DNA of 64,000 nt from Pyropia yezoensis. Taxonomy: Eukaryota; Rhodophyta; Bangiophyceae; Bangiales; Bangiaceae. This document shows positions 15,456-52,983 of the stretch, piece after piece (the stretch's first letter is position 1; every line of letters begins with the position of its first letter). The position numbers and the translations under genes were made by a program. The notes under the pieces were generated by a model. The model saw nothing but the letters and a program-made list of their open reading frames with translations, was not told the DNA's origin and did not search any database. Where the stretch lies: the NCBI GenBank assembly GCA_009829735.1, contig CM020619.1, positions 31,393,751 through 31,457,750 of the forward strand. Reading direction: 5' to 3'.

Positions 15456-17574
15456 CTACTCCCGGCGCGGACGCTGAGCCGCGGGAGTGTCCTCCAGCGC
15501 TGCCTCCGCGGCACGACGGGAACCGGAGGAAGACGGGATGACGTAGTGCGGTGGACGCGGTGCATCCCGGTATGACGCCATCGGAGTAGTACCGGTAGTT
15601 GCCGGGGGCTCCCGCTCATCCAGATATGCCCGTCGGCGCCCCTGGAAGCCAGTGAAGGTTTCGGACCACTGCTGGGCCAAGCCATGCCGCGTCAAGGTCG
15701 CCAGAAGTTCACCAATCACCGGGCTGTCCGACATCTGGCCGCTGTCCGCGCAAGCAAACACCCGGTGGACCACGTCGTTCAAGACGCTGGCATATGTGCC
15801 CAGAACCAAGGAAGACTCGACGCCTTCAATCTGCTCCGGAAGACGATTCAACTGGTCCTCAATCATGCCGACCTTATACTGGTCGTGCGTCGGGCTACCT
15901 TGGTTCAGATACCAGTCAGGCACCCGGAAGCGGGTAAGGCGCAGAGTCGGCGCCGAGATCTCGAATTGACCCGAGTTTGCCACCACCGGACGGTCAGCAA
16001 TAGCCCCAGAAACCGGAGTCCCCAACTTAAGGGGGGGGCACAGGGCCGCCGACAGTTGAAGAAGGCGCCCGAGGAGGAACGGTCGGAGTAGTCGGCGACT
16101 GGACGGCCACGCCAAGCCTTGCTGCAGACAAGCGCGGTGCCGGAGGAGCTTGAAGTACCGGCACAGCCAGAGCGGGGCGCAGCCGCGCCGGCGACCGTTT
16201 AGGCAACGCCACCGAGGGGACAGGCGCAACTGGAGCAAGCGGAACCGCCGCAGACGCCCGACCGACCGCCGCGGCCCATCCCGACTCTTGCACCGGCGGC
16301 CCAGTTGGCAGAAGATCGAGGGCGACCGAAGCAGGAAGGCTGCCTAGCTGCGGCCACGCCGGAAGCGGTGTCGCTAGCTGCTTCTTGGCCGGAGAAGACT
16401 GGTAGACCACCTGCACCCAACCGGAGCCATCCCGACGCGGGCTGTTCTGGTCGGCGATCGCGTTTAAGAAGCTCCGGTCATGCACCGGGAGCTGGCGGCG
16501 GAAGTCAATCATCGCCTGGAAGAGCTCCTTGTACTCCTCGTCCTGGCTGCACAGGAAGTCGACGGTCAACTTGTCGACGATCCAGACCATCAGGAGGTCG
16601 GGGAGAAGCCAAAGCCGGTTAGACACCAAGACCTCGTGGAGCGGTTGGTTGGCCGCCAAGACCGTCATCTCGGAGGTGTACATCATGTACGGGATGGAAC
16701 GGAAGAAGCCCTTGATCGACGCCTGGGTCAAGGCGTCCAGAATGTACCAGGTGAAGGGGATGCTGGATGGAACAAACCCGACTGGGATCTCGATTTCCTG
16801 CTGCTGCGGGATGACCTTGGGGTAGTACGCCACCCGGTGGGCCTTGTCCAGCTTCCAGAACTCTTTATGGTTGCAGCTCACGATGTAGTCACGCTGGCGC
16901 CCGCGCCGCTCGCCTTGCTCCCGCGCCGGCGACCACACGGAGTACTTCCGGGTCAAGAAAGGCGGCTCCAGAGCGACCATGCTCGGACGGGGATCGCAGT
17001 TCAGGCTCCCCGACCCCTTGAGCGCCTCGTCCCAGACCTTAAGCGCCCAGTGGACGTACCCTTCCTCCTCTGGCCACCGGAGAACGGACGCAGACACGCG
17101 ACGCTCGGTCAAGGGTAGATCGAGCACCAGCGCGAAGGGGAGATCCTCCAGGCGAGCAACACAACAGGAACCCGAGAAGCTCTGGGAGCGGTCTTATGCT
17201 AGGCGCATCTGGTCCGCCGCATGGAAACGAGGCTTGTCCATCTCGGTCAAGACCCCGCGCTGGAGTTCCTTGCGCCAGATGACCAGGCAATCTTCCTGAC
17301 ATTGGGCCGCGCTGGCGTTGCCGACCACCGTAGAGTAGCGCCGGCCCGTCAGAGGATCCTTCCCAAGAAGCATCTCCGGGAGACCCGCCGGCGGGGTCTC
17401 GACCGGGCGCGACGCAGAAGCCGGGGGAACTCGATCCGCCTCTGCCGTGGCCACCGACGTCGGCACCGACACCCGAGGAACCGGAAGCATGGGAAGGGCA
17501 CGGCCGCCCGGGCTCTCCTCTGCAAAACTCGCCACCGGAACCGCGGGCCCAACTTGGATCTCGGAACTGGACAT
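15456..17574 (-). pseudogene. Antisense ORF of family B (B1 copy, two lesions)
   Basis: A protein-length frame on the strand opposite to pol, tail to tail with it (145 bp between the two stops). It runs from ATG 17574 (MSSSEIQ...) to the stop at 15456. It matches B4's intact 705-residue version throughout but has TAA at 17194-17196 and a frameshift in a G-run near 16027. Features: Pro/Ala-rich N-terminus, a conserved core with Leu-Val-Ser...Glu-Phe...YYPK (near 16830-16880), a second Pro/Ala-rich linker, and an Arg-rich C-terminus (QRPRRE). I know no domain match. See findings for the shared motifs in families A and D. Confidence 0.75.
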
Positions 17575-20522: not shown

Positions 20523-20527
20523 GTCGG

Positions 20528-20996: not shown

Positions 20997-21066
20997 GTCG
21001 GGCAACCAGCGAAAAAGTCCAGTGTAGACGGTCCATAGCCCAACTCGGGCCGCCCATCATCCGACC

Positions 21067-22375: not shown

Positions 22376-22384
22376 GTGGTCACG

Positions 22385-23791
22385 ATGACGAATACTATTC
22401 TGAATCAGATTGTGGCGAGTTTGCCAGATGGCCTTAATGTCCAGACCGGATTGGGGCTTTCGAGCCCGCAGGCGCAGGGGGAATCTCCCCTGACGCCTAT
22501 TCCGGGTCGCCCCGAACAGGGGGGGACCCCTGTGACTCCCAACGTGGGAGCCGCACCATTCTCGGTGGGGCCTACGCCCTTCATGGGGGAGTTCCCTTCG
22601 GAAACGCCGGCGGCTACACCAAGTGCGCCGAGCCGGACTACAGGCACTGAGGGTCAACTTACCCCAGTGCCACAGCGGCTGTTCCCTCAACGTGAGGTGC
22701 CGCCCAAGATCCAGGTAGCCAACCCGGTCTACCAGCGGATCTTTGACTGTGAGACCTACGCCCTCCACAACAAGTCGGTGGCGTATGGTCCTGACCAGGC
22801 CCGAGCCATGGGCCGTGCCAAGAAGAATGCACTTCACTCTTTTGGGCACAAGGCGGAGTGGGATGGAACTCTCCCCCTCCGTGTCTTTGAGTTCCTACGT
22901 CGTTTCACAAAAGCCTGTGACGACAATGCCATAAGTGAAGGCATGGCTTTCTACATGCTACAGGAGTTTACCAAGGGCGACCTCCGGACAGAACTTATGT
23001 CCGTCATGCCCAGTTCCTCTAGTGGAGGCGCTGGGGAGGTGACGTCCTATTTGGAGCTCGTCAACTGGTTGTTGAGAGCCATGGTTGATGAGGCAGCGTT
23101 GGCTTCTCAAGTCGAGGAGTTTACGCAAGCCCATCAGGAAGAGGCGGAGGACGAGTTGTCCTTTGCGGAGCGAGTCCGTAAACTCAACAATCTTTGTGGG
23201 TTTCTTCATCCACAAGCTGTGGTGAAGAGCCGGTTTGTGGAGGGACTCCATTGGTCAGTCCGGATGGAGACCCGGGAGCATATCAATGCCCGGGCGACCC
23301 TGGCCGAGTTGGCCAGGTTCGCTTATCGCAGAGGCGAGGCCTACCGCAAGTTGCGGGAGGAACAACGCCAGGAGCGTCAGGCCGAGTTGGCCAAGGAACG
23401 GGAGGAGGCGCGCAAGGCCCGAGAGTTGAGAGAGGCACGCCGAATCCGCAAGGAGAGGGTGGTAGCTGCCGTGGGAACTTCCCAGGGTATCCCTTCGTCT
23501 TCCCCAGTTGAGAAGACTCCTCCCGGAACAGACCATCGGTGTTGGAACTGCAACTCCGATGGACACTGGGCATATGATTGCCCCAAGCTGAGTAAGCGCA
23601 TCCAACAAGTTGTTAGGAATGCGAGTAAGAAGACGGCTACGAACGAAGTACGTTCACGCCGCGAGGGTGGGTCTCGACCGGTCGTCGCGGTCGCCACACC
23701 CTCGGCGGAGGAGGCGGACACGTCGTCCTCAGACTCGTCGTCTTTCTCCCCGCCCTCCGATTCGGAAGCCAAGTCGGCGGGAAACGAATGA
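22385..23791 (+). CDS. gag: Gag of family D
   Basis: ATG 22385 (MTNTILNQ...) to TGA 23791, 468 residues with no lesions. The N-terminal 100 residues are Pro/Gly/Thr-rich. A capsid-like region follows (about 22830-23330; hydrophobic helices such as LRRFTKACDDNAISEGMAFY, also seen in B gag), then a charged Glu/Arg-rich coiled-coil-like stretch (about 23340-23470) and one perfect CCHC knuckle (CWNCNSDGHWAYDC, about 23540-23581). It ends Ala-Gly-Asn-Glu over GGGAAAC. Another GTG/ATG lies nine bases upstream; I prefer 22385 because the upstream bases directly border the LTR. Confidence 0.85.
   Translation: MTNTILNQIVASLPDGLNVQTGLGLSSPQAQGESPLTPIPGRPEQGGTPVTPNVGAAPFSVGPTPFMGEFPSETPAATPSAPSRTTGTEGQLTPVPQRLFPQREVPPKIQVANPVYQRIFDCETYALHNKSVAYGPDQARAMGRAKKNALHSFGHKAEWDGTLPLRVFEFLRRFTKACDDNAISEGMAFYMLQEFTKGDLRTELMSVMPSSSSGGAGEVTSYLELVNWLLRAMVDEAALASQVEEFTQAHQEEAEDELSFAERVRKLNNLCGFLHPQAVVKSRFVEGLHWSVRMETREHINARATLAELARFAYRRGEAYRKLREEQRQERQAELAKEREEARKARELREARRIRKERVVAAVGTSQGIPSSSPVEKTPPGTDHRCWNCNSDGHWAYDCPKLSKRIQQVVRNASKKTATNEVRSRREGGSRPVVAVATPSAEEADTSSSDSSSFSPPSDSEAKSAGNE
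23779..23785 (+). promoter_or_regulatory. -1 frameshift heptamer GGGAAAC (family D)
   Basis: G GGA AAC in the gag frame, two codons before the TGA stop. The pol frame is -1 relative to gag. Confidence 0.7.
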
Positions 23792-26700
23792 CCGTTGGGG
23801 CTGGGCGTCCGAAGCTCACAACGGCAGCCTCGGCCAAGTGGGCCAGGAGGACGAACCAACCGTGCCGGATACTGCGGCGACCTAAGGGAGTCCGCCCACC
23901 TCGGGTAGGACTCCCCACGAACGTAAACCCACGTCGGGTCATCGCGGTGCGGACGGGTGAGAACTTCCAGGTGATTGGACGGGTGCAACTTGCCCCCGGC
24001 CGCGCCTAGTGTGCCCGTATCGTACTTGATACCGGGTCAGGAGCCTCCTTGATACGCAAGTCGCTATTACCAAAGGAGGTGAAGCTCCAACGCTGGAGGT
24101 CCAAAGCTGACCATATGATTGACATCAATGGTGGGGTACTTCCCATCGTTGGTGCCGTGACCCTACCAACTAGGTTGGGGACCCATGAGGTCGACGTGAA
24201 CTATGGTGTAGTTGAGAGTATATCGGTACCACTGCTTCTGGGTACCCCTTATGTTGTTACACGAGTGCCTTTGATTTGTGGCCCTGAGTACTGGGTCAAG
24301 TTGATGAATTGGGAGACTATCCCCATCCTTGGTAAGGGAAAGTGTGTGGCTCCTGTGACAGTCTCACAGTCGAAGCCTGTTTGCTCTGTGAGGGAAGGGT
24401 TTACTGCTACTCTGCGTTTAGCCCGTAAAGTCACGTTGCCCCCCAACTCGGTGGCGCACGTTGACGTTGTAACTGATTTTTCGGGGAACGGGTTGGTGCA
24501 CCCTTACCCCCGTCTTGCTCGCAAGCACCAAGTGCATGTTGCCCTTGGCACGATGGACTCCAAAGCAAGAGTCGTGTGGAGGATACAGGTGATGAACCTG
24601 AGCTCGTCGCCCCAGTACTTCAAGTCGGGAGCCAAGTTCGGCTATATCGACCAACACGAGGGACCGGTAGTAGCGGTCACCCTCAACGCGGGCGCAAGTA
24701 GTGACCCGAGGTCCGGAAAGGAGAAGCATCAAGCCAAGTCGGCCGCCTTTCCTCGACCCCATGTGAACATGGAGGGTGTCCCCCCCAGGTTGAGGGTTCA
24801 AGTTGAACGCCTCTTGGACCAATATCACAAGTTGTGGGATGGTCAATTGGGACTCATAAGAGCTACCCAACACCGGATCGAGTTGAAGCCCGGTGCACCC
24901 CCTATACGCCAACAGCCGTATAGGGGAGGACCCCGTTCAAGGGCCCTCGTTAAGGAGCAAGATGCTCGCATGGAGGCCCTCGACGTGATCGAGGCCAGCA
25001 ACGCCGAGTGGGCGAGTCCGGTGGTTATCGTCCCCAAAATTGATGGGACCCCCCGGTTTTGTATCGACTACCGTAAGCTCAACGAGAGCACGGTGAAGGA
25101 CAGTTATCCCCTACCTAGGATGGATGATTGTCTGGACTCTCTGGGGGAGGCAAACGTGTTCTCTACCCTGGACTGTAACGCGGGGTACTGGCAAATTCCC
25201 ATTGCCCTGGAGGACAGGCAAAAAACTACCTTTACCTGTCACTGTGGTACCTACCAGTGCAAGCGACTACCGTTTGGACTGTGCAAAATGCCGGCAACTT
25301 TCCAGCGCGCTATGGACATGATTCTGGCCGGAGTACGGTGGCAGATCTGTCTTGTGTACCAAGACGATATTATTGTGTTCTCCCGAAGTCCGGACGAACA
25401 CATTGGCCATCTTGGCCAGGTGTTCAAGCCACTTGCTGACGCCGGTGTGTCACTGAAGGCGAGTAAGTGCCACCTCTTTACTCAAGAGGTGGAATACTTG
25501 GGACATGTTGTCCGTCCGGGGCGCCTCAGTGTCAACGAGAAGAACTTGAGGGCCATCCGTAAGGCTCAGTACCCCCGGACCCAGACCCAGATGAGGAGCT
25601 TCCTCGGGATGTGTAACGTGTACCGACGTTTCACCAAGGGCTTCGCCAAGGTGGCGAAGCCGTTGAATGAGCTAGTGAGCTCGACGCTACCGAAAAACCT
25701 GCCTCCCCCAAGTCGGGTGGAGCAGGAATCCTTTGAGGCTCTTCGGGACCTTCTGCTGAAGCCCCCCATCTTGGCTATTCCCAGGTTGGGAGGCCACTAC
25801 ATCCTGGATGTGGACGCTAGCTACGACCAACTTGGTTGTGTGTTGCTTCAGCAGCAGCCGGACAAGGAGTACTTGCCGGTGGGATACTTCAGTAAGGGGC
25901 TGAACTCGGCCGAGAAGAACTACGGAGTCACCGAGTTGGAAGGACTCGCAGTGGTGTGGGCGGTGACGTCACTTCGTCACTACCTGGAGGGTGAGAAGTT
26001 CCTCATCCGCTGTGACCACCGCGCGTTGCAGTTCATCTTTAAGAGGGATCGCAAAAACACACGCCTCAACAGGTGGAGGGTGCGACTGGCACCCTTCAAC
26101 TTTGATATTGAGTACCGACCTGGCAGGCAACATGCCCTTGCCGACGGCCTCTCTCGGGTACCTACCGAGGGGCTGGACACTAACCCAGTCGATGAGGACA
26201 TCCCTATCGTGGGAGTAGTCACGCGCTCGGGTCAGGCGTTGAACCCCGAGGCGCCAGGGAACAAGAAGTACTTGCCCCTGTCCCTGGACGAGGTGGTGAA
26301 GGCCCAGGCCGAGGATCCCTTCTGCAAGTCGCAGAGGGATATACTGGATACATTGGTGGAGACGCGTTTCTTTCTGGGAGACGATGGCCTCCTCAAGAGG
26401 AGGGGGGTATTCCAGGGTACTGAACAACTTGTCGTCCCCGCATTCCTCAAGGACAGTATCCTTGAGAGGGAGCACAACGCTCCCACGGGCGGACACCTGG
26501 GGTCTAGTAAACTGTACCAGACCCTGAGGACCAGGTACTACTGGCCGTCCATGGTGGTGGACATCTACAGTTGGGTGGCTGCCTGCACAAGTTGCGCACA
26601 GAACCGTCTGATGGAACGGCGGCCTAGTACGGCTATGCTATTGTTCCCGGCCAAGGAGTCCTTCGCCGCGTTGGCGATGGACATCCTTGGTCCACTGCCA

Positions 26701-27771
26701 GTGACCGAGGAGGGCAACCAGTACCTCCTGGTCATCTGTGACCGCTTCACGAAACTTACGCGAGCGATCCCACTGGCAGAGATCACGGCCATGTCGGTCG
26801 TGTCAGCCTTCCTAGATCACTGGGTTGCCGCGTATGGCATCCCAGATAGTACACTATCGGACAATGGACCGCAATTTGCGTCTGAACTGTTTCAGGGAGT
26901 GCTGGATATGTCGGGGGTTAAGGCAAACTATGCCACCCCCTACCACCCACAAACTAATGGGCAGGTGGAGCGCTTCAACAAAACTATTGTTAGGCAGCTG
27001 CGCCACTATGTGAGTGAGCACGTGAAGACATGGGACCAATACATTTCTATTCTCACCACTGCCTACAATTCGCAGGTTCACTCATCTACCGGGGAAGTAC
27101 CCCTCGCTTTTGTGACCCCCCGTCGTGTGCGGTCTATTGCCGTGCGGCGGTCGCTCCCAACTAGGGAGGATGGTGGCAGTACGCCTACTCCTACTGAGAG
27201 TAAGGCGGAGTTCGCTGCTAGGCTGGAGCACCTCATCCCTAAAGTCAGGGCTGAGATGGAAAAAGCACAAAAGCGCTACAAGCGTACCTTTGACAAAAAG
27301 GTGCGCAACGCTAAGTATGTCCCCGAACAGGGTGACTGGGTGTTGGTTCACTCACACACCCCAACTGGGGGTAAGTTGGTATTCCAGACGAAGGGGCCGT
27401 ACCAGGTCCTTCGTACTGATGGGCGGCGCTTCACCATCGAAAGTGACGATGGGGTCCGCACAGTGAACGGACAGGACGTGGTCAAAGTTGCACCACCGCC
27501 TGCAGGCGACCCAGCTTGGGCGCGTGCGTTGGAAGCGTGGCGCCTCCCCTCGCTGCCTGCTGCCAATCAGGGCCCGCAGGAGTACGTGTTCGATAAGTTT
27601 ATCGACCACGGATGGGATGAGGATACTAACCGCCTCATGTTGAGGGTGCGTTGGTTTGGCTACAAAGCCAAGGACGATACGTGGGAGTATGTGGAGGACC
27701 TTCCTGCTGAGAAGGTCCGGGCGTACTGTGCCCGGAATGAGATAGACCCTAACAGCCCTCCCTCAACGTGA
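23782..27771 (+). CDS. pol: Pol of family D (one internal TAG)
   Basis: The -1 frame is open from the slippery site except for TAG at 24007-24009, just before the protease (VLDTGSGASLI at about 24025). From 24010 it is open for 1253 codons to TGA 27771. RT (about 24890-25520) has TLDCNAGYWQIP and the catalytic box YQDD, not the more common YLDD. RNase H (about 25790-26160) keeps its D, E and D residues. Integrase has an HHCC site (about 26470-26600) and a D-D-E core (AMDILGP, SDNGPQF, QVERFNK). A GPY/F-like motif (TKGPYQV) and a chromodomain-like tail (about 27580-27740; LRVRWFGYKAKDDTWE) complete it. The TAG may be a lesion or assembly error; readthrough is less likely given the frameshift site. 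Confidence 0.88.
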
Positions 27772-27882: not shown

Positions 27883-29826
27883 CTAGGCACGCATGCTAGA
27901 CTCCCCAACACCACGGCCCTCGCCCTCACGTGGAGGCGAGCGGCGAGACCCACGCCGATAACGGTCTCCACTCGTTGGAGGGGGCGGCGGCTCCAAGTCG
28001 GAACCGTCGCGCCCTTCACGGTCGCGCAAGTGGCGCCGACCGTGGCTACTCTTCTGCCTGGTCTTGCGCGCAAGTTTGCGACGCAGATGCTGGACAGACT
28101 CCGTCTCCGACGGGGTAGAGGACTCCGAGACGGAGTAGGACAACTCGTCTTCCGACACGGAGGGAGAGCGCCGTGAGTGTCGGCGACGACGGCGAGGAGG
28201 CGAGTATGCCCGGCTCGCGCGACGCTTGCCACGCCCAAGTGGGGCTGGCTGGGGCATAATAGCCCCAATGCGAGCAAACTCGGCTGTCATAAACTCCGCC
28301 ACCGACTCGCAACTCGCGGTCGCCACTGCAGTACGAACGCGCTCCTCAAGTTGAGGAGTCTCGGAGCTCTGGAGAGTTGCGGTCGACGCGGCCAACCAGG
28401 AAATGGTGCGCACCAACGTGGTGATCATCATCTCTGAGGTTAGAGGCGTGGGCGGTAACACCAACTTGGGGTATACCGTCAGGAGGGTGGCCCCCAAGTT
28501 GGGGGACACCGGGGTGGATGACTCCACGGCCACGCTGATCGGGATGTTCCCGTGAGGTTGGAAAGGAACAGGAGGAAGCGGAGGGGCCCGCCGAGGTGGC
28601 GGTACCCGGGTGTAACTGCGACCCCGACTTGGGGCCCCCGCAGTGGGTTGAGTCATGTGGTCATCATAGGACGGCACGGCCATAATTATGGGCTTGTCCG
28701 GGGGTGGCGCAGTGGGGCGATCCACCCCCGGGGCATACGGGTAGTCCCCGATGCCCAACCCCTCTCGTAGGACCACACGGCCGTCGTGAAGTTCACGAGC
28801 GACCCACACGAACTGGCGAAGTGCGCCATCGTCCTTGGGCCCACGAGTGGGGCGGCGCAACTTGTGCTCAATGCTCTCCCACTCGATGAACTTGTGGAGG
28901 CGGAGCATCTCCTCAAGTAGAGTGAGTTGTCCTGATGAGCACCCCTCAGCAACTAGCTGAGGGGTGAGCTGTTCCAAACCTTGGATGAGCCGGAGGGGGA
29001 GATGCCAGAACATCCCCCGCCGCTGAACACAAGCCACCCAGGTCGACATGACCTCGAGGTGCCACTGGGTGGCCAACATGGCCCACACCAGGTGATGAGG
29101 GCCAGCCGTCAACATGACGGAGCCGAAGTGGTCAAGCAACCGTGGCAGCAACGCCGGGAACCCGTAGCGGACCTCAACTTGAGGCCACCACTCGGGCTTC
29201 TTCGGATAGTACTGCTCCTTACTGGCAGCAGACTGTTGAGGAAACTCAAGTTGAGCCGAGGTCACCAAGTAGGGACCTCGCCGGAAGTCCTTCTCCATCC
29301 GCACATCAAAGTGATGAGTGTGCGGATCGGCCTCGTGGGGGTACGGGGGGCGAGTTGCCACCGCGTCCCAAGTAAAGGTCGGCAAGTCGCCGGGACCCGG
29401 GATAGTTCCCCCGCGGTCCACCATGGCCTTGGCCCGCTGAACGTCCTCAACCTCCTCATCGTCCAGGAAGGCGAACTGGTCCGTCCTGAAGCCGGCAGGG
29501 AACCCGACCCTACGGGGATGCTTCTCCCGTAGGCGGTCCCATACCCGACCCATCGCTGCGCCAAGTCGGCCACAGCGAAGAACAGTCAACCCCTCCTCAT
29601 AGAGAGGCCAAGCGGGGTAAAACCACCGCCCCAAGGCCTCACGCGGGAAAACTTTTCCCGCCTCCGGGGGAGACCCCGCCGTCAACCCAAAGCCGGGTGA
29701 CGCGGGAGTCCCATCCCCCGGAGCGATCGCGGAGCCCCCGCCGGAAGTCCCGGCGGGTGCTGCACCGTAGGTGGTGTCCTCCATACGCTCATCCAGAGAG
29801 TCCGTCTCCACTCCCGGGGTCGCCAT
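27883..29826 (-). CDS. Antisense ORF of family D, unknown protein (647 aa)
   Basis: Intact on the strand opposite to pol, stop 111 bp from the pol stop. ATG 29826 (MATPGVETD...) is the first ATG; the frame extends upstream to 29997 only with a TTG. Layout: acidic and Gly/Ala-rich N-terminus; a core at about residues 130-330 with LV[ST]x4EFx10YYPK, a Phe-x-Ser-Val stretch and RRGMFWHLP; a Pro-rich linker; and an Arg/Ser-rich basic C-terminus (RRRRRHSRRSP). The spaced core motifs are shared with the antisense ORFs of B and A. No known domain, signal peptide or membrane segment is evident. It would be expressed from an antisense promoter in or beyond the 3' LTR; nuclear or RNA binding through the RS-like tail is speculation. 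Confidence 0.75.
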   Translation of the reverse strand: MATPGVETDSLDERMEDTTYGAAPAGTSGGGSAIAPGDGTPASPGFGLTAGSPPEAGKVFPREALGRWFYPAWPLYEEGLTVLRCGRLGAAMGRVWDRLREKHPRRVGFPAGFRTDQFAFLDDEEVEDVQRAKAMVDRGGTIPGPGDLPTFTWDAVATRPPYPHEADPHTHHFDVRMEKDFRRGPYLVTSAQLEFPQQSAASKEQYYPKKPEWWPQVEVRYGFPALLPRLLDHFGSVMLTAGPHHLVWAMLATQWHLEVMSTWVACVQRRGMFWHLPLRLIQGLEQLTPQLVAEGCSSGQLTLLEEMLRLHKFIEWESIEHKLRRPTRGPKDDGALRQFVWVARELHDGRVVLREGLGIGDYPYAPGVDRPTAPPPDKPIIMAVPSYDDHMTQPTAGAPSRGRSYTRVPPPRRAPPLPPVPFQPHGNIPISVAVESSTPVSPNLGATLLTVYPKLVLPPTPLTSEMMITTLVRTISWLAASTATLQSSETPQLEERVRTAVATASCESVAEFMTAEFARIGAIMPQPAPLGRGKRRASRAYSPPRRRRRHSRRSPSVSEDELSYSVSESSTPSETESVQHLRRKLARKTRQKSSHGRRHLRDREGRDGSDLEPPPPPTSGDRYRRGSRRSPPREGEGRGVGESSMRA

Positions 29827-30151: not shown

Positions 30152-30164
30152 GAGGAGAGGGGAG
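30152..30164 (+). other. Polypurine tract of family D
   Basis: GAGGAGAGGGGAG directly before LTR-D. Confidence 0.7.
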
Positions 30165-30633
30165 TGTGGCAGTATTGACCCCCAGGTAGGGGGGCAACAC
30201 GTGCCATGCAAGGGGCGGCAGGCCACTAGCCTGATCCGTTCCTTCCCCTGCATTTGGGTCCATATTCCCTAAGTTTGGGATAGTTAGCTTAGTAGTAAAT
30301 CCAACTTGGATTTGAGGGTTTTCTGCATTTATCGTCTTGAATTTTCGTGTGGCCCGGTGGGCAGGTGCTGGGGTGGGAGATTCTGAGTGGCGAGATTCTG
30401 AGTGGACCCTGGGGGGATAAGGGGAGGGACAGCGGGGCTTGGCCCTGCGTCCCCGTCCCGACCAAGAAACTGTTGGACCACACACCATCTTCTTGTTTGT
30501 CCGTGGGGGGATTGCCCCACAACAGGGACAGAGTGTGTGCGACTTGCACTTCTTCCGGTTCCACCGACACGGGAGGCAGCCCTTGCACACCGCCCCAACT
30601 TGGGTGCCGTGTGTGTGAGTGGTTTTTGCAACA
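30165..30633 (+). repeat. LTR-D, 3' LTR
   Basis: 469 bp, TGTGGCAG...TTTGCAACA. The minus strand is open throughout and encodes the same Cys-rich segment as the solo LTR (CKGCLPC...CPCCG). Confidence 0.88.
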
Positions 30634-32304
30634 GTGCTGGATCTACCCTTGACCGAGCGTCGCGTGTCCGCGTCCGTTCTCCGGTGGCCAGAGGAGGAAG
30701 GGTACGTCCACCGGGCGCTTAAGGTCTGGGACGAGGCGCTCAAGGGGTCGGGGAGCCTGAACTGCGATCCCCGTCCGAGCATGGTCGCTCTGAAGCCGCC
30801 TTTCCTGACCCGGAAGTACTCCGTGTGGTCGCCGGCGCGGGAGCAAGGCGAGCGGCGCGGGCGCCAGCGTGACTACTTCGTAAGCTGCAACCATAAAGAG
30901 TTCTGGAAGCTGGACAAGGCCCACCGGGTGGCGTACTACCCCAAGGTCATCCCGCAGCAGCAGGAAATCGAGATCCCAGTCGGGTTTGCTACATCCAGCA
31001 TCCCCTTCACCTGGTACTTTCTGGACGCCTTGACCCAGGCGTCGATCAAGGGCTTCTTCCGTTCCATCCCGTACATGATGTACACCTCCGAGATGACGGT
31101 CTTGGCGGCCAACCAACCGCTCCACGAGGTCTTGGTGTCTAACCGGCTTTGGCTTCTCCCCGACCTCCTGATGGTCTGGATCGTCGACAAGTTTACCGTC
31201 GACTTCCTGTGCAGCCAGGACGAGGAGTACAAGGAGCTCTTCCAGGCGATGATTGACTTCCGCCGGCAGCTCCCGGTGCATGACCGGAGCTTCTTAAACG
31301 CGATCGCCGACCAGAACAGCCCGCGTCGGGATGGCTCCGGTTGGGTGCAGGTGGTCTACCAGTCTTCTCCGGCCAAGAAGCAGCTAGCGACACCGCTTCC
31401 GGCGTGGCCGCAGCTAGGCAGCCTTCCTGCTTCGGTCGCCCTCGATCTTCTGCCAACTGGGCCGCCGGTGCAAGAGTCGGGATGGGCCGCGGCGGTCGGT
31501 CGGGCGTCTGCGGCGGTTCCGCTTGCTCCTGTTGCACCTGTCGTCCCGGTGGCTTCGCCTGGACCGTCTCCGGCGCGTTTGCGTTCCGCTCCGTCTGTGC
31601 CGGTGCTTCAAGCTCCTCCGGCCCCGCGCTTGTCTGCAGCGAGTCTTGGCGTGGCCGTCCGGTCGCCGACTACTCCGACCGTTCCTCCTCGGGCGCCTTC
31701 TTCAAACTTCGGCGGCCCTGTGCCTCCACTGGAGTTGGGGACTCCGGTTCCTGGGGCTGTTGTGGACCGTCCGGTAGTGGCATCCTCGGGGCGGTTCGAG
31801 ATCCCGGCGCCGACTCTGCGCCTTGCCCGCTTCCGGGTGCCTGACTGGTACCTGAACCAAGGTGGCCCGACATGCGACCAGTACGACGTCGGTATGATTT
31901 AAGACCAGCTGGGTCGTCTTCCGGTGCAGGTTGAGGGCGTCGGGTCTTCCCTGGTGCTGGGTACATACGCCAGCGTCTTGAACAACGTGGTTGACCGGGT
32001 GTTTGCTTGCGAGGACAGCGGCCAGATGTCGGACAGCCCGGTGGTTGGCGAACTTCTGGCGACCTTGACGCGGCATGGCTTGGCCCAGCAGTGGTCAGAG
32101 ACCTTCACTGGCTTCCAGGGGCGCCGACAGGCACATCTGGATAAGCGGGAGCCCCCGGCAACTACCGGTACTACTCCGATGGCGTCATACCTCGATGCAC
32201 CGGGCCCACCGCACTACGTCATCCCGCCTTCCTCCGGTTCCCGTCGTGCCGCGGAGGGAGCGCTGGAGGACGCTCCCGCGGCACAGCGTCCGCGCCGCGA
32301 GTAG
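30634..32304 (+). pseudogene. Antisense ORF of family B (B3 copy, N-terminus lost)
   Basis: On the plus strand because B3 is reversed. LTR-D interrupts it at the codons for LDLPLTERRV, so about 150 N-terminal residues are missing. One in-frame TAA at 31900-31902 replaces a Glu; otherwise the frame matches B4 to the C-terminal QRPRRE. The core with Leu-Val-Ser...Glu-Phe...YYPK and the Trp/Phe-rich block are intact. That so little damage occurs in a non-gag-pol frame supports past selection. Confidence 0.75.
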
Positions 32305-32455
32305 AAATTGGAGGCAAGGAGGGTGAGAGTCTTGGGAGAAGGGAGGAGGGAAGAGGCGGAGAGAAGGGTTGCTCGAGCGGGTGCTTGTTTTCCTTGATTG
32401 TTCCATGCTTGCATTGCGTGTTTTCCTTGATATACCCGTTCCCTTTTTCTCAATC

Positions 32456-37666: not shown

Positions 37667-38029
37667 TGTAGCAACATGGTTGGCCGTACTGTGACCCTAA
37701 TGTTAGGGGGGCTACTTCTAATCCTTGGCTTTTAACTTGAGAGTCCGTACTGGTCACGGTATCTATAAGTTACGTATGACCAGAGGGACTTGCATCTTGG
37801 GGTGGAGGGTAGTTAGTAGTGTCTCCGAGGGTTTATAACGAGGGGGCCGGCGGTGAATCCACCGCCGGCCAAGGTAGAACAACAAACCCCTCCCATTTGG
37901 GCTCCCATCTTGGTCCCGTGGCTTGCGCTCCAAGGACAGCAACCTTGGCCTCCCGGTGACGTTAGTGCCGATCCCCCTTGGTGAGTGTTCCCTGAGAGTG
38001 GACGTGCGACGGATTCCAATTGTGCTACA
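37667..38029 (+). repeat. LTR-A, 5' LTR of A3
   Basis: 363 bp, TGTAGC...GCTACA. It contains a TTTATAA box at 37832-37838 and a perfect 11-bp-stem inverted repeat just after it (GGCCGGCGGTG...CACCGCCGGCC, about 37846-37871). Confidence 0.9.
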
Positions 38030-38030
38030 T

Positions 38031-38254: not shown

Positions 38255-40438
38255 ATGTCTACCCAAGAGACGGGGAACGTTCAAGAATACGGATCGGCGT
38301 CGACGCCGACTCCGGAGGTGACTACGGGAACCGGGATCGGGAACCCGATCAACAACATTGAGAAGCCAATGCTTTCCGGTGCCGGATCGACGTTTGGCAC
38401 GGCTCGGACGGCAGGAGGCGGGGGCCCACCTCAACTGTCGTCGACCGACCTCACTCCGCCTCCTCCTTCACCAGGGGATTCCCTGATGGCATCATTGGCC
38501 CGCATCAAGGCCCGGTTTTCCGGACTCGACGCTCGCCAGGAGCGGACGGAGGACGCGATGGTGGTGCTGATGTCAGCACGCCATACGACGTTACCCCGTC
38601 GTATCCCTCCCACCCCGGTACGATTCGAACCGGCCGGACTACTTTCGAAGTCCACCAGGGTCAACCCCGGTGTTGCTACTCCTGGACACCCCCCGGACAC
38701 GGCGGGGTATGGATCCGCCTCGTCGGCTGAGTTGTAACGTAGCCATACGGAGCGCTACGCTCGGAGCACCCAGAGCGGGCTCCGCAGACATGGTCCGGCG
38801 GACACTTACGCCGGAACAGAGTCGGCGATGGGGGGAGACGGTACCGTCTTCCATTACCCCCTCGACGACGGAAGCCAGGCAACTCGGGTACCCGAGGCGC
38901 CGACGCCTGAAGTTCCAGCGTCACTGATGCAAGCGATGACAGCGCAGGTTACTGCGAGCTTACTGAAGCGGATGGAGTCCAATGAGTTCACCCATCAACT
39001 GGCGAAGCGACTGGATATCCAGGACGCGGACACGGAGATTGTCAACGAAGTCTTCCGGTCGGTACTGACTCCCGAACGTTATCATTTGGAAGACCGATCC
39101 ACTGCCGTATCGGAATCGATGCGTACGACCTCGCACCGAGCGATTTGCTCTATGCAGACCCTTATGAAGGGAGTCCCTATGTTCGGGGGCCCCAACGGAC
39201 GCCCGTTGGCAGTCATCGGTTTCTTGACTAGCTTCAAGGCAGCCGCGGACAAGGCCCTCGTTAACGAGGGGCTGGCCCTGGAGATCCTCCCGTTCTTCGT
39301 TGATGAACGGGTGCGAGGCATCCTTCGCCAGGCATCCCCGATGCCGGGAATGAGGGATGCGGCCACCCCCATGGATTACCGTGGGATTCTCAAGGAGCTG
39401 CTGAGCAGTTACCTCAGTGAGGACAAGTGCGAGGACCACTACCGGGCCCTGCGCACTGCCACCGCCCAGAGCTGGGAGGATGAGGAGATGTTCGGACGAC
39501 GGATTCAAGAGCTCGACTACGAGCTGGGGAAGCTCCTCGGAGAAGGGGAGCTACGGGCCATCCTGTTCGCAGGAGTACCCAACTACGTGCGGATATCCGC
39601 ACGGGGAGCCAATACGGCTCGGACCAACTTCAGTCGACTGATGCACATGTGCAAGTCCCTAGGGGACGCCTACCGGGTTCTACACCCGGAATGTGCCTTG
39701 GCCCCGAAGCCCAAGGGTGAGGGAGGCAAGCCCAGTCTTACCCCGGTACCGAGGCAAGAGAAGGTGGAACGTAAGGCCGCACCAGTACTGGTGGCGACCG
39801 AACATCCCCCTACCGGTGAGGATGAACCTCTAGTCGACCAACAGGGCCACCTGTTGCTACCGGCGACGCCGGTGATTGATGAGCACGGTACGGTAGCGTA
39901 CATCGCCCCGGCTGGAACCCAGTTCCAGGTCAACGAAGGAGCGGGACGGCGCGTCCCGTATGTGCGGACTACGGGGTATGCCCCGGTTACGGGTAACCCC
40001 CATCAGCCCCTGCCTACATGGGCAGTACTAACGGAGGCACCTCCGCACATCGCTGGTAAAGCCAACCGGTTGGGGGAGTCCATGTTCCGGCTGGCACCGG
40101 GACCCAAGGCCTACCAAGGAGCAGGCACTCGGGCGCCCGAGGCAGGCAACCGGAGCTACGGGGCTACCCCTATGCGAACCCAAGGGGTGGCCGGCACGTC
40201 CGGATGTATGTTGTGTGGGGATCCCCAACACTGGGTGTCTTCCTGCCCACTCATCCCCGAGGAGTCTCGGCGGGCAGCGGCGCAACGCAAGGCATCCACC
40301 GGGGGGTACCCCGCCAGAGCACCCGGACCCGCACCGGGTAGGCAGCCAGCTCCAGGTGGAGTACTGGCCGTCGAGGAGGCACCTCCTCATCAGGATGTCC
40401 CGGCAGACAGCACCCGGACGAGCACGGGAAACGAGTAA
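38255..40438 (+). pseudogene. gag: Gag of family A (A3), one nonsense codon
   Basis: ATG 38255 to TAA 40438, 728 codons, broken only by TAA at 38735-38737 (Glu in A1, TAA also in A2). The N-terminus is Thr/Pro/Gly-rich; the capsid-like region is at about 38960-39660. A Pro-rich spacer and one canonical CCHC knuckle follow (CMLCGDPQHWVSSC, about 40206-40248). The end is Thr-Gly-Asn-Glu over GGGAAAC (40426-40432). It shares the capsid-knuckle-GNE plan with B and D, but its sequence is clearly a different family. Confidence 0.88.
40426..40432 (+). promoter_or_regulatory. -1 frameshift heptamer GGGAAAC (A3)
   Basis: G GGA AAC in the gag frame, before GAG TAA. The protease frame (40522 onward) is -1. 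Confidence 0.7.
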
Positions 40439-43400
40439 GAGGAAGGACGACACGGGGTCGCTGGGGTAACCCTAGCAAGCCACCTCGGACTGCCGCGGGG
40501 AAGGCCCCACGGAGAGCGCGGTTGAGCCGACGCCGCATCAACCCCCGGGTACACCTTCCGGCCCCGACGACACGGCGTCAGGGGGTTGATGACCAACCAC
40601 CAAGGTTGGGAGGAGAGGACGGGAAGCCCCGTCACATGGAACCAGACAAGGGCCCTGTTCAGGATGCCCGAGATACACCGGATATCGGCGTAGGCCACGT
40701 GCTGTTCACCTTGGAGAACTTCAAAGTATCAGCCACACTGGGGGTTGACACCCAGTCGACCCGGTCGTATTACCCCGTACTGGATACAGGGGCTGGACCT
40801 AACCTGATCCGGAAGGATACCCTCCCGGACAAGTGGCTCCCGCGAGTTCGAGTTGCTCGGGGACCCACGATCAAGGATGCGAATGGTCGTCTCATTCGTA
40901 CGACCGCAGCGATGTCGCTGCGGGTAACGTCGAGCCGAAGACACTTCGGTTGGCCAAGCGAACTCGCTTTGAGCCGTTGTCAGAGACAGTCCTCCCGGTT
41001 AAATGCGACCTCGCAGGCATCTGCAGAGTCCGGTCCAACCTGCGGACGTACAAGCGCCATGAGTTGACCATGGCCAACGGTCTCATAGACCTCCCAGCAG
41101 GAGGGTCGTCCCTCCTAGTGATGGCGAACTATCGCCGTAAGGCAGTCACCCTCCCGAAGGGAACTATCCTCGGGATTGCCGAGCTCTACGAAGGAGATAT
41201 CCTTACCCCTGACAAGGAAGGTCAAGTGGAACCACTTGAGGTGCTGGCGGTCGCCGAGACCACCGAGCGACAGCAACCCGATGACGGGAAGCCTAACCCA
41301 TCGGCGGCTTCGGCGGACATGCCGCCAAAGGACCAAGCAGCACTGAAGGCCCTGGCCGAGGCTGACCTCGACCACCTTCCCCCTTCGGTAGCCGAAGGGG
41401 TACGACGGATGCTAAGAAAACATGACGTCATGTGGACAGGCGGGGCCTTGGGTACCATTGGGGCAACCCAACATCGTATAGACCTGGTACCAGGCGCACG
41501 ACCCGCCCGGTCACAACCGCACCGAGCGGGACCTATGCAACGAGAGATCGTTGATGGAGAAGTGAAGAGGATGAGCGACGCGAAGGTGTTACGACCTTCG
41601 ATGTCGGAGTGGGGTGCCCCAGTCGTTATCGTACCGAAGAAGGATCAAAACCCTCGGTTTTGCATCGATTATCGACGCCTCAACTTGGTTACCAAGAAAG
41701 ACTCATACCCTTTACCAAGGATGGATGAATGCATCGACTCCCTGGGGGAAGCTACGGTGTTTCCCACCATCGACTGCAATGCCGGATACTGGCAGATCCC
41801 GGTGGCGGACGAGGATATCCCCAAGACGGCGTTCGTCTGTCACAGTGGAGTGTACGAGTTCCTAAGGATGCCCTTCGGATTGTCCAACGCCCCCGCTACA
41901 TTCCAGCGGGCTATCGACATTATACTGTCGGGGGTGAAGTGGCGTAACTGCCTAGTGTACCTCGATGACGTCATCGTCTTCTCGCGTAACGTGGATGACC
42001 ATGTGCAACATGTTGACGAGGTACTCACCCTGTTGAGGGACCCCGGGGTAACCCTGCGTCTGAAGAAGTTCGCCTTCTTCCAACAGACGGTCGAGTATCT
42101 GGGCCACCAGATAACCCCTGGTAAACTAGGGGTACTCGAAGCCAATACCCGGGCACTCCGGGATGCCCGGTTCCCTAACACCCAGACGCAGCTCAAGAGC
42201 TTCCTGGGAATGTGCAACGTATACCGACGGTTCGTCAAGGACTTCGCTCGGATAGCTAAACCATTAACGGTTCTTACGAGCAGTACCTTGCCCAAGGTAC
42301 TCCAACCCCCTTCGCCTAGCGAAGAGGAGGCATTCGAGTCGCTGAAGCGAGCCCTACTATCCCCACCCGTCCTTGCGTTACCGCACAGACGGGGTACCTT
42401 CGTCATCGATGTCGATGCGTGCGACACCCAAGTGGGATGCACCCTGTTGCAGGGAGAGACGTTGATCGGTACCGATAACGTTATCCCGGACCTACTTCCA
42501 GTAGGGTACTTCAGCCGGACACTCAACCCGGCTGAGCGGAACTATAGTGCCACCGAGCGTGAATGCCTCGGAGTTATATGGGCAGTGCAACTGCTCCGTC
42601 CATACCTGGAGGGCTCCAGGTTTATCGTGAGGTCCGACCACGAACCCCTACGATGGCTCCTCAATCTTGGTGACAAGGATTCCGATAGCCATGGGAGGCT
42701 AGCCCGATGGAGGCTGAAGATGGCCGAGCACGACTACCGTACCGTGTATAAGGCTGGGTCAACCCACCACCTCGGAGACGCGTTGTCTCGACTCGACACC
42801 CCGAGCGGGGATACCCGCCCGGTGGACGAAGACATCTCGGTGGTACCGGTCTGCATGGTGGGTAACGCCACCCAAGGTATGGTTGACCATACCATGGCGC
42901 ACCGAGCATGCCCATTGACTCTCGCGGACTTCCGCGAGGCACAAGCCAATGACGACGACTGTAGACGCCATCGCGCTAACCTCCTGGCCGGTACGGCCCG
43001 CATCTTCTCCGAGAATGAAGACGGACTCATATACCGGCGGGCACCCGCCGATGGACGACATCAAGTCGTGGTTCCCGTGTCCTTACGGCAAGCCGTCATG
43101 GAACGAGAACACGAGAACCCTACAGCCGGACACCCGGGGGGTTCTCGTATGTTCGCAGCAATGCGAAGGTTCTTCTACTGGCCAGCAATGGCCGTCGACG
43201 TGGTCGACCACGTAAGGGGATGCCACCCCTGTGCACGTAACCGCATGAGTCTACATAGGCAGGCGTCTGCCATGAAGCTGTTCCCACCTGATGGGCCCAA
43301 CGAGCAGGTCGCTATCGACATACTCGGGCCACTTCCGGTAACGGAAGAAGGGAACAGGTACATCCTAGGCATGTCAGAACGATTCACTAAGCTGTCACGA

Positions 43401-44433
43401 GCGGCAGCCATCCCGAATGATACGGCATATACCATCATGAACGCAGTGGTTGACCACTGAATCAGTGCATACGGAGTCATGAAGCAACTCCTCTCCGACA
43501 ACGGAGCAAACCTGACGTCTGCATTCTGCACTAAGGTCATGGGCATGTTCGGCATCGAACCACGTCGGGCATCCGACTACCACCCGCAAACCAACGGGCA
43601 AGTGGAGCGGTTTAACCGCACCATCGTTAAGATGCTACAGTGCTACGTGGCCGAGCACACGAACACTTGGGACAGGCTTCTGTCCGTACTCACCCTGGCA
43701 TACAATGCCAGGCCACATCGGAGCACAAACATCGCCCCACTGGAGTGGGTCATGCCACTAGGCGTCGGTAACCTGACGCTGCCACCCGGCAGGTGCACTC
43801 GGTATGATACACCGAAGGGCCGACCGGCCGAACGCATCCACCTAGCTTGGTTGGCCAAGCTATCGTGGATGATTCCTAAGCTCAAGGGTGCCCTTGACAG
43901 AACACAACTTCGATACAAGAAGAACTTCGACGCCCGACTACGGGTGCGCAACGCTACCCTGATGACCGGTGACTGGGTCTACAACAGACACCAGAAGTTC
44001 CGGGGGGAACAAGCTCATGCAACCGGTCAAGGGGACCGTACAGATTCTCCACAGAGATGACTACTCTGTTATCTTACACTCCGATACGGAGATCCAACGC
44101 ATCAGTGTGAATGATGTCACACCAGCGCCGAAGCCAGAACATCCTCAGCCGGTACGGCTGGGTTGCTACATGAAAGCGCTTACCACCCACCGGTCGGATG
44201 ACCCGGTGGGACCGGATGGAATCCCATACCAGGTGGAGAGCATCGTCGGACATACCGACCCAGATCTACCAGAAACCCTGGTACGTCAAGGTAATGTGGG
44301 TCGGTTACGACTCACCCACCTGGGAACAGGCGGCGAATATACCCCGCCAACTACTCATGCCGTACATGAGGCGACGCCGCCTCCTGTAACAACCCAACCG
44401 ACACCGACTTCGGATGTAGGGGGTGGGGCTTAG
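40429..44433 (+). pseudogene. pol: Pol of family A (A3), several lesions
   Basis: Protease motif LDTGAG near 40781. The protease is then cut by a deletion of about 220 bp at 40928, judged against A1, which also shifts the frame. RT is intact (IDCNAGYWQIP; YLDD near 41960). RNase H (DVDACDTQVG) and integrase HHCC (near 43105-43240) follow. The integrase core (AIDILGP, SDNGAN, QVERFNR) is broken by TGA at 43458-43460. Two frameshifts follow, one in a G-run near 43999 and one near 44280; the second splits a chromodomain-like tail (VKVMWVGYDSPTWEQ). A3 cannot encode its own full Pol. Confidence 0.88.
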
Positions 44434-45202: not shown

Positions 45203-47020
45203 TGGCTGCTATGTATGGACATCAGTCAAGGAAGGGTAGCCCGGTGGCGCCTACGCCTTTCAGAGTTCAAGTACAAGGTGTGCCCCAGAGCAGGGAGGGA
45301 GCACCACTGCGCCGACACCATGTCCCGGCTGGAGACTCCTGCAGCCGATACCGGTCCTATCCCGGAGGAAATACCTTGCTTCATCCTCCCGAATGTCGGA
45401 CGTGGCTGGCACGCTCCCCTGTATGAGACACCTGAAGCTCATCAACCGGTGACCATTCACCGGATGCTGGAGGCACAACTGACGGATCCTCAATGCTTGG
45501 AGCTTCGCCACCAAATGGACCTGAACCGGAACAGTCGTTTCTCCGAGTCTACGGACGGACTCCTAGTACGGGTGTCACCCTTCGATGGGGCCACTCAAGT
45601 CTACGTACCCCGGGGCCTACGAGCTGACATCCTACGCCTGGAGCACTCGTCTCCCCAGGCCGGACATCCTGGTATCAATCGGATGTATGCTTCCATGAGA
45701 CGACACTATTACTGGGAAACCATGGCCAGTGACGTCCATAAGTACCTGGAGGCTTGCGTTTCGTGTGCAAGGAACCGGTTGTCCCAGAGGAAAAAGACTT
45801 CTAAGCTACGCCTATTCCCTGCGGCGGAGCCCTTTGCAAGCTTGAGCATGGACATCCTGGGGCCCCTACCTGAAACATCCAGTGGCAACCTATACCTGCT
45901 CATCATATGTGACCGGTTCTCCAAGTTCACTCGAGCAATCCCGCTGAGGACCATCACGGATCTGGATGTTACGTCAGCCTTCTGCGAGTACTGGATAGCT
46001 GCCTACGGTCCTCCAGACTCCGTCTTGACCGACAACGGTCCCCAGTTTGCATCCCTGTTCTTCCAAGGAGTCTGTGACCTGATGGGCATCAAGAACTTGT
46101 ACACTACGACGTATCACCCTCAAACGAACGGCCAGGTGGAACGATTCAACCGGACCCTAGTAGACATGCTACGGCACTACGTGGAGGAGCACCAAGAAGA
46201 CTGGGACGAGCTCCTGGCTGTCCTCACTCTAGCCTACAACTCCCGAGTTCACCGGACAACGGGGGTCGCTCCACTCGACTTTGTCACCCCAAGGCGGCTG
46301 ACCAACTTCTCCCTGGAAAGAATACCAGACGGTCTCCAGCCTGCACTGAAGTCAGGTCCCAAGGCAAAGGATGAGTTCCTGGAACAACTGAAGCTCCTGC
46401 TCCCAAGAGTCAAGGAGTCAATCTCGAAGACCCAGGAGCGCTACAAGCGGGACTATGACAAGGGCGTTCGGGAAAAGAACAAGGAACTGGGTGGTGGCGA
46501 CTGGGTTTTTGTTGTCAACCATAGCAAGACCCGGGGGAAGCTGGACTCGAAGACGGATGGACCTTCTGAGATCCTGAATACGGACGGTTGGACGTTTCTT
46601 CTGGACGTGGATGGCTCCCCGTACCGCGTGAGCAGCGACCATGTCACCCGAGCTCCACCGCCAAGCCAACGGGACTTGACCCGGCGCAAGCGGGCCGCAG
46701 TACCCTGGCTATCCCAAGAAGAAGGTCGGGAATATGTCTACGTCAAGTTTGTGGACCATGCCTGGAGAGACGGACGCTTGTACCTGCGAGTACGCTGGTT
46801 CGGTTTTAACCCGGCAGATGATACATGGGAACCCTCAAACCGGCTACCCATCGCGGATGTCTGTGCCTACACGCGACGGAACGGGATAGAGGGCACTCCA
46901 GTGGCCAGAGCCGGCAAGATTCTGGAGTCGGACTCGGAGGAGGACCAAGAGGATGGGGCCAACCAAGACCCTCGGGACGAGCCGAGTTCATCCGCAACGG
47001 ATGCGGAACAAGAGGATTGA
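45203..47020 (+). CDS. pol: Pol of family B, RNase H end to chromodomain (B4)
   Basis: Open from the gap edge to TGA 47020, 605 codons. It has the end of RNase H, integrase HHCC (about 45640-45780), D-D-E core (SMDILGP, TDNGPQF, QVERFNR at about 45846-46160) and a chromodomain-like tail (LRVRWFGFNPADDTWEPSN). At 45424 it reads GAG where B1 and B3 have TAG, which shows that B pol is normally one continuous frame. The upstream part is inside the gap. Confidence 0.88.
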   Translation, partial: WLLCMDISQGRVARWRLRLSEFKYKVCPRAGREHHCADTMSRLETPAADTGPIPEEIPCFILPNVGRGWHAPLYETPEAHQPVTIHRMLEAQLTDPQCLELRHQMDLNRNSRFSESTDGLLVRVSPFDGATQVYVPRGLRADILRLEHSSPQAGHPGINRMYASMRRHYYWETMASDVHKYLEACVSCARNRLSQRKKTSKLRLFPAAEPFASLSMDILGPLPETSSGNLYLLIICDRFSKFTRAIPLRTITDLDVTSAFCEYWIAAYGPPDSVLTDNGPQFASLFFQGVCDLMGIKNLYTTTYHPQTNGQVERFNRTLVDMLRHYVEEHQEDWDELLAVLTLAYNSRVHRTTGVAPLDFVTPRRLTNFSLERIPDGLQPALKSGPKAKDEFLEQLKLLLPRVKESISKTQERYKRDYDKGVREKNKELGGGDWVFVVNHSKTRGKLDSKTDGPSEILNTDGWTFLLDVDGSPYRVSSDHVTRAPPPSQRDLTRRKRAAVPWLSQEEGREYVYVKFVDHAWRDGRLYLRVRWFGFNPADDTWEPSNRLPIADVCAYTRRNGIEGTPVARAGKILESDSEEDQEDGANQDPRDEPSSSATDAEQED

Positions 47021-49283: not shown

Positions 49284-49472
49284 GACGTCTAGGCTCCGGG
49301 GGGGGGAACGAGAGGGCCAAGGTGAAGGAGAAAGGGGAGGGGGCAGAACCGGAGCAGGTGATCGTGACCAGGGGGAAGACGCTCGACCTCGGCACCGGTG
49401 TGGACGTGCTCGAGGCTGTGCACGGTGGCACCTGGTTCGGCCCAAGGACGTGCCGGACTAGGGAGGGAGCTA

Positions 49473-50043
49473 TGTAGCATCCCTGGCCCCGACTTGGCGC
49501 CGACCCGGGACTGCAACCAGAGGGCACCAGGTGCCAGTACACGCCCGCCGTGTGGTGATGGTTGGCGGTCGTGGCCCGTGCCCGGCACTGGGATGCGGTG
49601 GACTACGCTATCCACACGCGAGAGAGGGATTTCTGATGTGTTTTTGCATACTTGTGAGGGACTTGATTTGAGAGAAATTGAGTGTGAGATTAGTGAGTGG
49701 GAATAGAATTAGTAGTGATAGTGGCCCCCGACCTGACGAGGTTAGACTCGGGTCGGGGCCACTCGGGGTTATGGGGGGGCTACCTGGCCAACGTGCCGAG
49801 GCTCCCCCAGATGCACGTTAAGAGGGACAGCGAGGCGCCCTTGGCCCGCGCCCTCAGGAAAAAGACAACTGCGCGTTTGCTTTCCTCTTCCCCGTGTGCA
49901 CTACCGTGCGTATCTGTTCGCTCTGCGAGCAGGCACGTGAGGCAACAGGCATACCATTCTCGTAGTTCCCCTTTCTGTGTTACCTGTCCCTTTCCCCCGA
50001 GGGATATTGACACGTGTCTGAGAGGATCGAGTTTTATACCACA
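49473..50043 (+). repeat. LTR-B, 3' LTR of B4
   Basis: 571 bp, TGTAGCATCC...TTTTATACCACA, preceded by the polypurine stretch GGGAGGGAG (49460-49469). TATAAAA on the opposite strand at its far end points toward the antisense ORF. Confidence 0.9.
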
Positions 50044-52620: not shown

Positions 52621-52983
52621 TGTAGCAATATGGTCGGCCGTATTGTGACCCTAATGTTAGGGGGGCTACTTCTAATCCTTGGCTTTTAATTTGAGAGTCC
52701 GTACTGGTCACGGTATCTATAAGTTACGTATGACCAGAGGGACTTGCATCTTGGGGTGGAGGGTAGTTAGTAGTGTCTCCGAGGGTTTATAACGAGGGGG
52801 CCGGCGGTGAATCCACCTCCGGCCAAGGCAGAACAACAAACCCCTCCCATTTGGGCTCCCATCTTGGTCCCGTGGCTTGCGCTCCAAGGACAGCAACCTT
52901 GGCCTCCCGGTGACGTTGGTGCCGATCCCCCTTGGTGAGTGTTCCCTGAGAGTGGACGTGCGACGGATTCCTATTGTGCTACA
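52621..52983 (+). repeat. LTR-A, 3' LTR of A3
   Basis: 363 bp; followed by the TSD CTTGT. The GC-rich inverted repeat has one mismatch here (CACCTCCGG). Confidence 0.9.

Follow-up and report, generated by a model that had tools for sequence, protein, structure and literature searches.

The window analysed in this study is a stretch of 64,000 nucleotides (C2:31393751-31457750) from the genome of Pyropia yezoensis, a red alga of the Bangiales. The assembly holds 107,475,971 bases in 11 contigs, of which three are large (43.59, 34.33 and 29.39 Mb), and the genome paper gives about 108 Mbp, scaffolds of 43.6, 34.3 and 29.4 Mbp, and 48% repeats with LTR elements foremost (PMC7423979). Three families of Ty3/gypsy LTR retrotransposons (A, B and D) were found in the window, and each of them carries a long ORF on the strand opposite to pol.

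Nested elements and their antisense ORFs

D was identified as a Ty3/gypsy element by its RT, RNase H and integrase in gypsy order (Pfam on D pol) and by its LTRs (repeats), and A and B were assigned to the same group by comparing their pol with that of D, which was the one scanned with Pfam. The three pols were 44-46% identical in pairwise comparison, which means near-equal relatedness. The gags were about 30% identical where they could be aligned, and the D-A gag match reached only E 0.004. A chromodomain (PF00385) was matched in D, the only pol scanned, at E 2.6e-4 and 21.3 bits, below the cut-off of 25.1. Self-comparison of the window gave the order of nesting: A3 lies within a minus-strand B copy and is in turn interrupted by B4 and an N gap, and D adjoins the cut end of another B part (junction 30634). 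The features are listed in Table 1.

Table 1 Positions of the elements and antisense ORFs in the window
Feature	Position	Strand	Basis
Damaged B2 antisense ORF, frameshift and stop	15456..17574	-	
D gag with zinc knuckle	22376..23791	+	Pfam zf-CCHC
D pol (RT, RNase H, integrase, weak chromodomain match)	24049..27771	+	Pfam
D antisense ORF, 647 aa from ATG; open frame extends back to 30057	27883..29826	-	
D Arg/Ser-rich basic tail, about residues 533-600	28027..28230	-	
D core domain, residues 95-319, probably common to A and B antisense proteins	28870..29544	-	BLASTP, hhalign, shuffles
D 3' LTR, about 472 bp	30164..30635	+	Direct repeat with 20527-20998
Damaged B3 antisense ORF, 5' end missing at D junction, one in-register stop	30634..32304	+	
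A3 5' LTR, 363 bp	37667..38029	+	Repeat with 52621-52983
A3 gag	38828..40438	+	30% identity to B gag across 158 residues
A3 pol, 875 open codons, then broken	40833..43460	+	
N gap in A3	44703-45202		
B4 pol, 3' part	45215..47020	+	46% identical to D pol 667-1233
B4 antisense ORF, 705 aa, open	47166..49283	-	
B core domain, residues 200-362, aligned to D 156-314	48198..48686	-	hhalign
B4 3' LTR	49472..50043	+	Repeats
A3 antisense ORF, 627 aa, cut by in-frame stop, then B4 insertion	50153..52036	-	
A core domain, residues 381-592, aligned to D 95-319	50261..50896	-	
A3 3' LTR	52621..52983	+	Repeat with 37667-38029

Some further features of the locus were also seen. The 5' end of D is rearranged, with an LTR copy at 20527-20998 and an inverted LTR piece at 21596-21804, and a minus-strand B LTR reaches about 22375-22385, where the gag ORF starts. 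An inverted duplication of 8.9 kb (97% identity; 8231-17127 and 30634-39529) includes an A/B junction; B2 and B3 thus probably arose by this duplication rather than by independent insertion. A near-identical TGGTGGAGCAGCAGGGGA-like sequence follows the 5' LTR in A, B and D (4764-4790; 38029-38050; near 5722 in the D copy L009), and it is probably a tRNA primer site shared by all three. Host genes for a mitochondrial carrier and a bestrophin-like protein (Pfam; 56592-58151 and 59351-61315) flank the repeat block.

As the original prediction had stated, the antisense ORFs of D, B4 and A3 lie opposite to pol and between it and the 3' LTR; pol is on the plus strand and the ORFs are on the minus strand. 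Pol stop and antisense stop face each other tail to tail, separated by about 110 nt in D and about 145 nt in B4, and the antisense start is turned towards the 3' LTR, which lies about 337 nt away in D, 188 nt in B4 and 584 nt in A3. Pol and the antisense ORF of A3 are separated by the B4 insertion, but elsewhere in the genome the A copy L099 and the 76%-identical A sister L100 have the ORF in the same place and orientation, and the tail-to-tail order could be seen there directly, with a wider gap of about 450-480 nt. The damage predicted for B2 and B3 was also found. All three main ORFs had been called intact, which holds for D and B4, but the A3 ORF ends at an in-frame stop, shortly after which the B4 LTR cuts the frame. 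L100 has 815 residues from the matching ATG, and L099 has 787 open codons with its N-terminal part in another frame; both extend about 200 residues past the end of the window A ORF, which means that A3 is a truncated copy. In position and orientation the ORFs belong to the aORF-3R class (antisense additional ORF between pol and 3' LTR), and they are conserved in most copies, as counted in copies ranked by similarity, from which the decayed fraction is not derivable.

Common core, copy number and codon pattern

The antisense proteins of D and B share the pattern LV[ST]x4EFx10YYPK, and a six-frame search of the window matched it once in each of these two ORFs and nowhere else. A second predicted motif, RRxGx[LF][FW]HLP, matched A only as it was written, but a form common to D and A does exist: [QR]R[QR]G[MR][FL][FW]HLP, a pattern composed after seeing the alignment, had exactly two matches in the six frames. 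Single BLASTP comparisons gave E 3e-7 for D-B, 6e-8 for D-A and 0.66 for B-A. When D was compared with all 253 stop-to-stop ORFs of at least 100 aa in the window (E<=0.01), only the A (5e-6) and B (1.7e-5) antisense ORFs were matched besides itself; the B protein matched its own copies and D. The A sister matched A, D and one other ORF (22145-22894) at E 0.002, and this last match shows where noise begins. Alignment of the cores scored 110 for A sister-D and 84 for B-D, against a maximum of 61 and 63 in 500 local shuffles, while A-B scored 48, a value reached by 3 of 500 shuffles (top 52). With whole proteins, D-B scored 113 and D-A 104 (top of 300 shuffles, 100 and 82), and B-A scored 73 (top 112). 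Profile similarity by hhalign, with shallow family alignments, was found for D-A (78% and 67% by direction), was lower for D-B (49% and 32%) and was lacking for A-B (2% and 0.3%), so the expected similarity among all three was obtained in part. The case for one family therefore runs through D. We consider it quite likely that the antisense proteins have a common core.

Each core is followed by a family-specific tail. We do not claim a shared C-terminal domain, since A sister-B scored 46 (reached by 1 of 500 shuffles) and A-D and B-D were at shuffle level. The core is 22-26% identical between families, compared with 44-46% for pol, which fits a common ancestor whose gag and antisense protein would have evolved faster; this relationship was judged from comparisons among A, B and D only. 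Origin by gag duplication was rejected: neither D compared with the gags of A and B, nor A and B each compared with its own gag, reached the top of 300 shuffles. D against its own gag scored 75 (top shuffle 74), in the proline-rich part of D (408-541) outside the core.

Protein relatives were found for D (P0001, 95%) and B (P0002, 98%), and a query with the three-family alignment added P0003-P0005 (65-71% to D) and P0006-P0007 (B-like, 76-82% over the best stretch). They came from lgn, ena and eukprot, and scoring was partly limited to candidates sharing most words. Pfam hmmscan found no family for the three whole antisense proteins (E<=1) or five core pieces (E<=10), and a PDB sequence search with the D protein gave 0 matches. 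The structure prediction called for originally was made with AlphaFold for D 60-369 and B 130-400; the helices of the core follow a similar order in the two models, but mean pLDDT was only 38 and 35, and since the two alignments share most sequences the similar order counts for little. The core is predicted to be helical with low confidence only. Arg-rich, RS-like clusters were seen near the end of D and were absent from B and the A sister. The highest 19-residue hydropathy was 1.13 (D), 1.54 (B) and 1.37 (A sister), and no membrane-type hydrophobic segment was found in any of these three.

The ORFs exist in many copies. In the genome, 68 of 68 scored D copies and 50 of 63 scored B copies had no stop; the A core had at least 151 matches (47 at 83-100%, the rest at 75-77%), and at least 150 were listed for a D-like query. 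These counts are lower bounds ranked by similarity and do not give the decayed fraction. The A sister, with a 75-77% identical antisense core (C1-C3, e.g. L093-L098), is high-copy with many near-identical matches, and its copies apparently come from a recent burst.

To follow codon changes, 28 D copies were fetched, namely the 8 best protein matches and 20 hand-chosen from the other 60 listed; all 28 were open, in 26 distinct DNA versions. Among the 8 (28 pairs) pN/pS was 0-0.18. The pair L002-L003 differed at 3 first, 2 second and 60 third antisense positions (pN/pS 0.02), and its five other frames held 13-26 stops each. In a six-frame test of four D pairs the antisense frame was the only one free of stops; one sense frame, whose third positions coincide with the antisense ones, also had a low ratio but contained 26-28 stops. 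In B, mean pN/pS was 0.21 (55 pairs, 11 copies, of which 10 were chosen from 62, all without stops). Higher values were seen for B4 against its two closest copies (0.47, 0.63) and for L032-L033 (0.82), as expected for changes after insertion, and the damaged B2 and B3 gave 0.34 and 0.30 against B4. For A, 20 loci were chosen from 150 matches besides the window's own, and one has a stop. The window core had dN/dS 0.11-0.75 against 13 copies at 83-99%, and 0.19-0.23 (pS 0.48-0.51) against 7 copies of the 76% sister. Judged by codon comparison, then, the protein encoded by the antisense ORF is under strong purifying selection in each of the three families, in agreement with what had been predicted. 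That the ORF is a selected accessory gene we hold to be very likely.

D copies with a pol deletion

Six of the 28 D copies (L003, L005, L007, L008, L009, L014) share a junction that joins window position 24958 to 26967 and, by the Pfam positions, are left without RT, RNase H and most of the integrase core. L009 and L014 also have no gag in a fetched stretch that reaches the other LTR, while the fetched stretches of the remaining four end earlier. A different, rearranged deletion was found in L011, where gag and most of pol are absent and the antisense ORF is open, so gag loss was seen directly in L009, L014 and L011 only. Next to the primer-binding site of L011 lie a short stretch of RT in inverted orientation and 61 nt of the antisense gene. 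The other 21 D copies are colinear with D as far as they were fetched (to window 26386 or 25886), which does not prove them complete, and variants called private below were judged against these 21 only.

A search with the junction DNA found at least 40 copies at 98-100% over 140/140 bases, 35 newly taken by this search and 5 from the earlier protein search. The antisense ORF was fully open in 25 of the 40 and broken or missing in 15. Adding L014 gave 41 copies, and removal of five that aligned poorly left 36 for analysis of variants. Variants shared by at least two of these 36 but absent from the colinear copies were 40 synonymous, 20 nonsynonymous and 1 stop, and singletons were 93, 184 and 8, respectively (40:21 vs 93:192, Fisher P = 2.5e-6). 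By state of the ORF, private shared variants were 12:4 in 26 open copies and 24:14 in 10 broken ones, a similar pattern. There were also 78 synonymous and 8 nonsynonymous variants common to pol-deleted and colinear copies, which makes it likely that the pol-deleted ones have exchanged sequence with others or arose recently.

The pol piece left 3' of the deletion was used for comparison. In 25 pol-deleted copies its pN/pS was 0.22 and that of the antisense ORF 0.12, and in the 21 colinear copies the values were 0.092 and 0.068. Private shared variants were 2:3 in the pol piece, too few to compare, and 17:5 in the antisense ORF of 24 pol-deleted copies; in colinear copies they were 7:1 and 3:0. 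Thus the leftover pol is also little decayed, and youth or recombination could keep the antisense gene intact without selection in cis. These variant patterns suggest, but do not show, that the antisense gene acts in cis.

Interpretation and known systems

We weighed several other explanations. Antisense RNA alone could matter, through double-stranded RNA or silencing control, with the ORF incidental; antisense transcripts of retroelements can act without a protein (PMC7264820), but substitutions fall mainly on the third positions of a single frame, and in that frame pN/pS is far less than 1 in each of the three families, so we find this hardly credible. Both this reading and chance ORFs were rejected, since the codon pattern is strongly against them. 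That the gene was captured from the host and retained because the host profits from it, or that it is env-like, is very improbable. Gene capture by LTR elements is known (PMC7264820), but the own-genome matches at 65-100% are high-copy repeats wherever their context was read, which was done for some, and no single-copy host gene with the same core was present among the best-scored candidates in the genome. An env-like additional ORF was rejected for its wrong strand and lack of a membrane segment, and Pfam gave no match. Three unrelated antisense ORFs might instead have arisen separately, with a similarity that is only compositional. The A-B similarity, not significant alone, and the lack of a Pfam family would agree with this, but D matches A and B over an overlapping region with both scores above all 500 of 500 local shuffles, no other of the 253 window ORFs matches D at E<=0.01, and each family has the ORF in the same place and orientation. 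We regard separate origins as improbable.

A further alternative is a selected protein that works in trans (in the particle, in packaging or in integration), with the pol-deleted copies keeping the gene through youth and recombination. The many variants shared with colinear copies and the little-decayed leftover pol speak for it, but the private variants in the pol-deleted antisense ORF are still mostly synonymous, and RT, RNase H and the integrase core have been lost while the antisense gene was kept, L011 included. We consider this explanation somewhat unlikely. A benefit in cis is proposed because a gene acting fully in trans should decay in deleted copies like their other genes.

By analogy with Grande, we propose a nuclear accessory protein that would keep its own copy or sub-lineage active. 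A single ancestor of A, B and D would already have had an accessory gene opposite gag-pol and beside the 3' LTR. The gene would be transcribed from a promoter in or beside this LTR, and its protein would act in the nucleus and favour the copy or sub-lineage encoding it, most likely by sustaining transcription from its own LTR or preventing that LTR from being silenced. The nuclear role is suggested by the Grande antisense protein, by the Arg-rich clusters found in D only and by the lack of a membrane segment. A selected accessory gene of common ancestry, its exact molecular role left aside, is likely on the whole, and the protein probably helps the element to spread; a cis-acting nuclear regulator is a tentative suggestion. 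With the same reserve, this may be an undescribed antisense protein family outside flowering plants and without detectable TRP28, acting in cis as the sole long gene kept under selection by some D-derived elements that have lost gag and most of pol and would borrow Gag-Pol in trans. If this is true, an element could be reduced to its LTRs and an antisense self-promoting gene, with Gag-Pol supplied in trans.

For the question of what antisense genes do in LTR retrotransposons, high-copy families in a 108-Mb red-algal genome offer enough copies for codon-level tests, and pol-deleted copies that often keep the antisense gene are a natural experiment, in which cis and trans action can be tested by sequence alone. 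What is new here is that at least 40 D copies share a pol deletion and often have an open antisense ORF. In a search weighted to openly readable papers, we found no description of antisense genes of LTR elements in red algae. But the original statement that no antisense family was known across element lineages has to be given up, since plant Retand elements had already been described with TRP28 (PMC11963269). In that paper TRP28 is antisense in 97% of Retand clusters, and every row of its Table 1 without a gag-pol domain keeps TRP28 (15 rows by our count, ten clusters in its text); across 617 Viridiplantae assemblies Retand, which is described as a lineage of non-chromoviruses, turned up only in eudicots and monocots. 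For Grande, the antisense protein is reported to be nuclear and to be expressed from a promoter of its own (PMC7264820).

Like Retand elements (Grande, RIRE2, Retand), the algal families have an antisense ORF between pol and the 3' LTR that is conserved across families. However, Pfam gave no PF04195 (TRP28) match in the A, B or D proteins, these elements live in a red alga, and a weak chromodomain match was seen in D pol, while Retand is non-chromovirus. The core had been suspected to resemble TRP28, but Pfam lent no support. The algal families parallel the Retand elements in a distant host, and their protein has no detectable relation to TRP28. Boty of Botrytis, compared by its description, has an antisense ORF in the same position and orientation between pol and the 3' LTR (PMC7264820). 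The env-like ORFs of plant and insect elements also lie between pol and the 3' LTR, but they are sense and have membrane segments, neither of which was seen in the A, B and D antisense ORFs. For algal DNA transposons, self-modifying accessory proteins are already under discussion. VANC proteins of VANDAL elements are anti-silencing proteins of DNA transposons. Those elements are of a different class, and for the algal retrotransposon protein we infer the function, but compared by description the proposed logic is alike: a factor encoded by the element keeps the element's own copies active.
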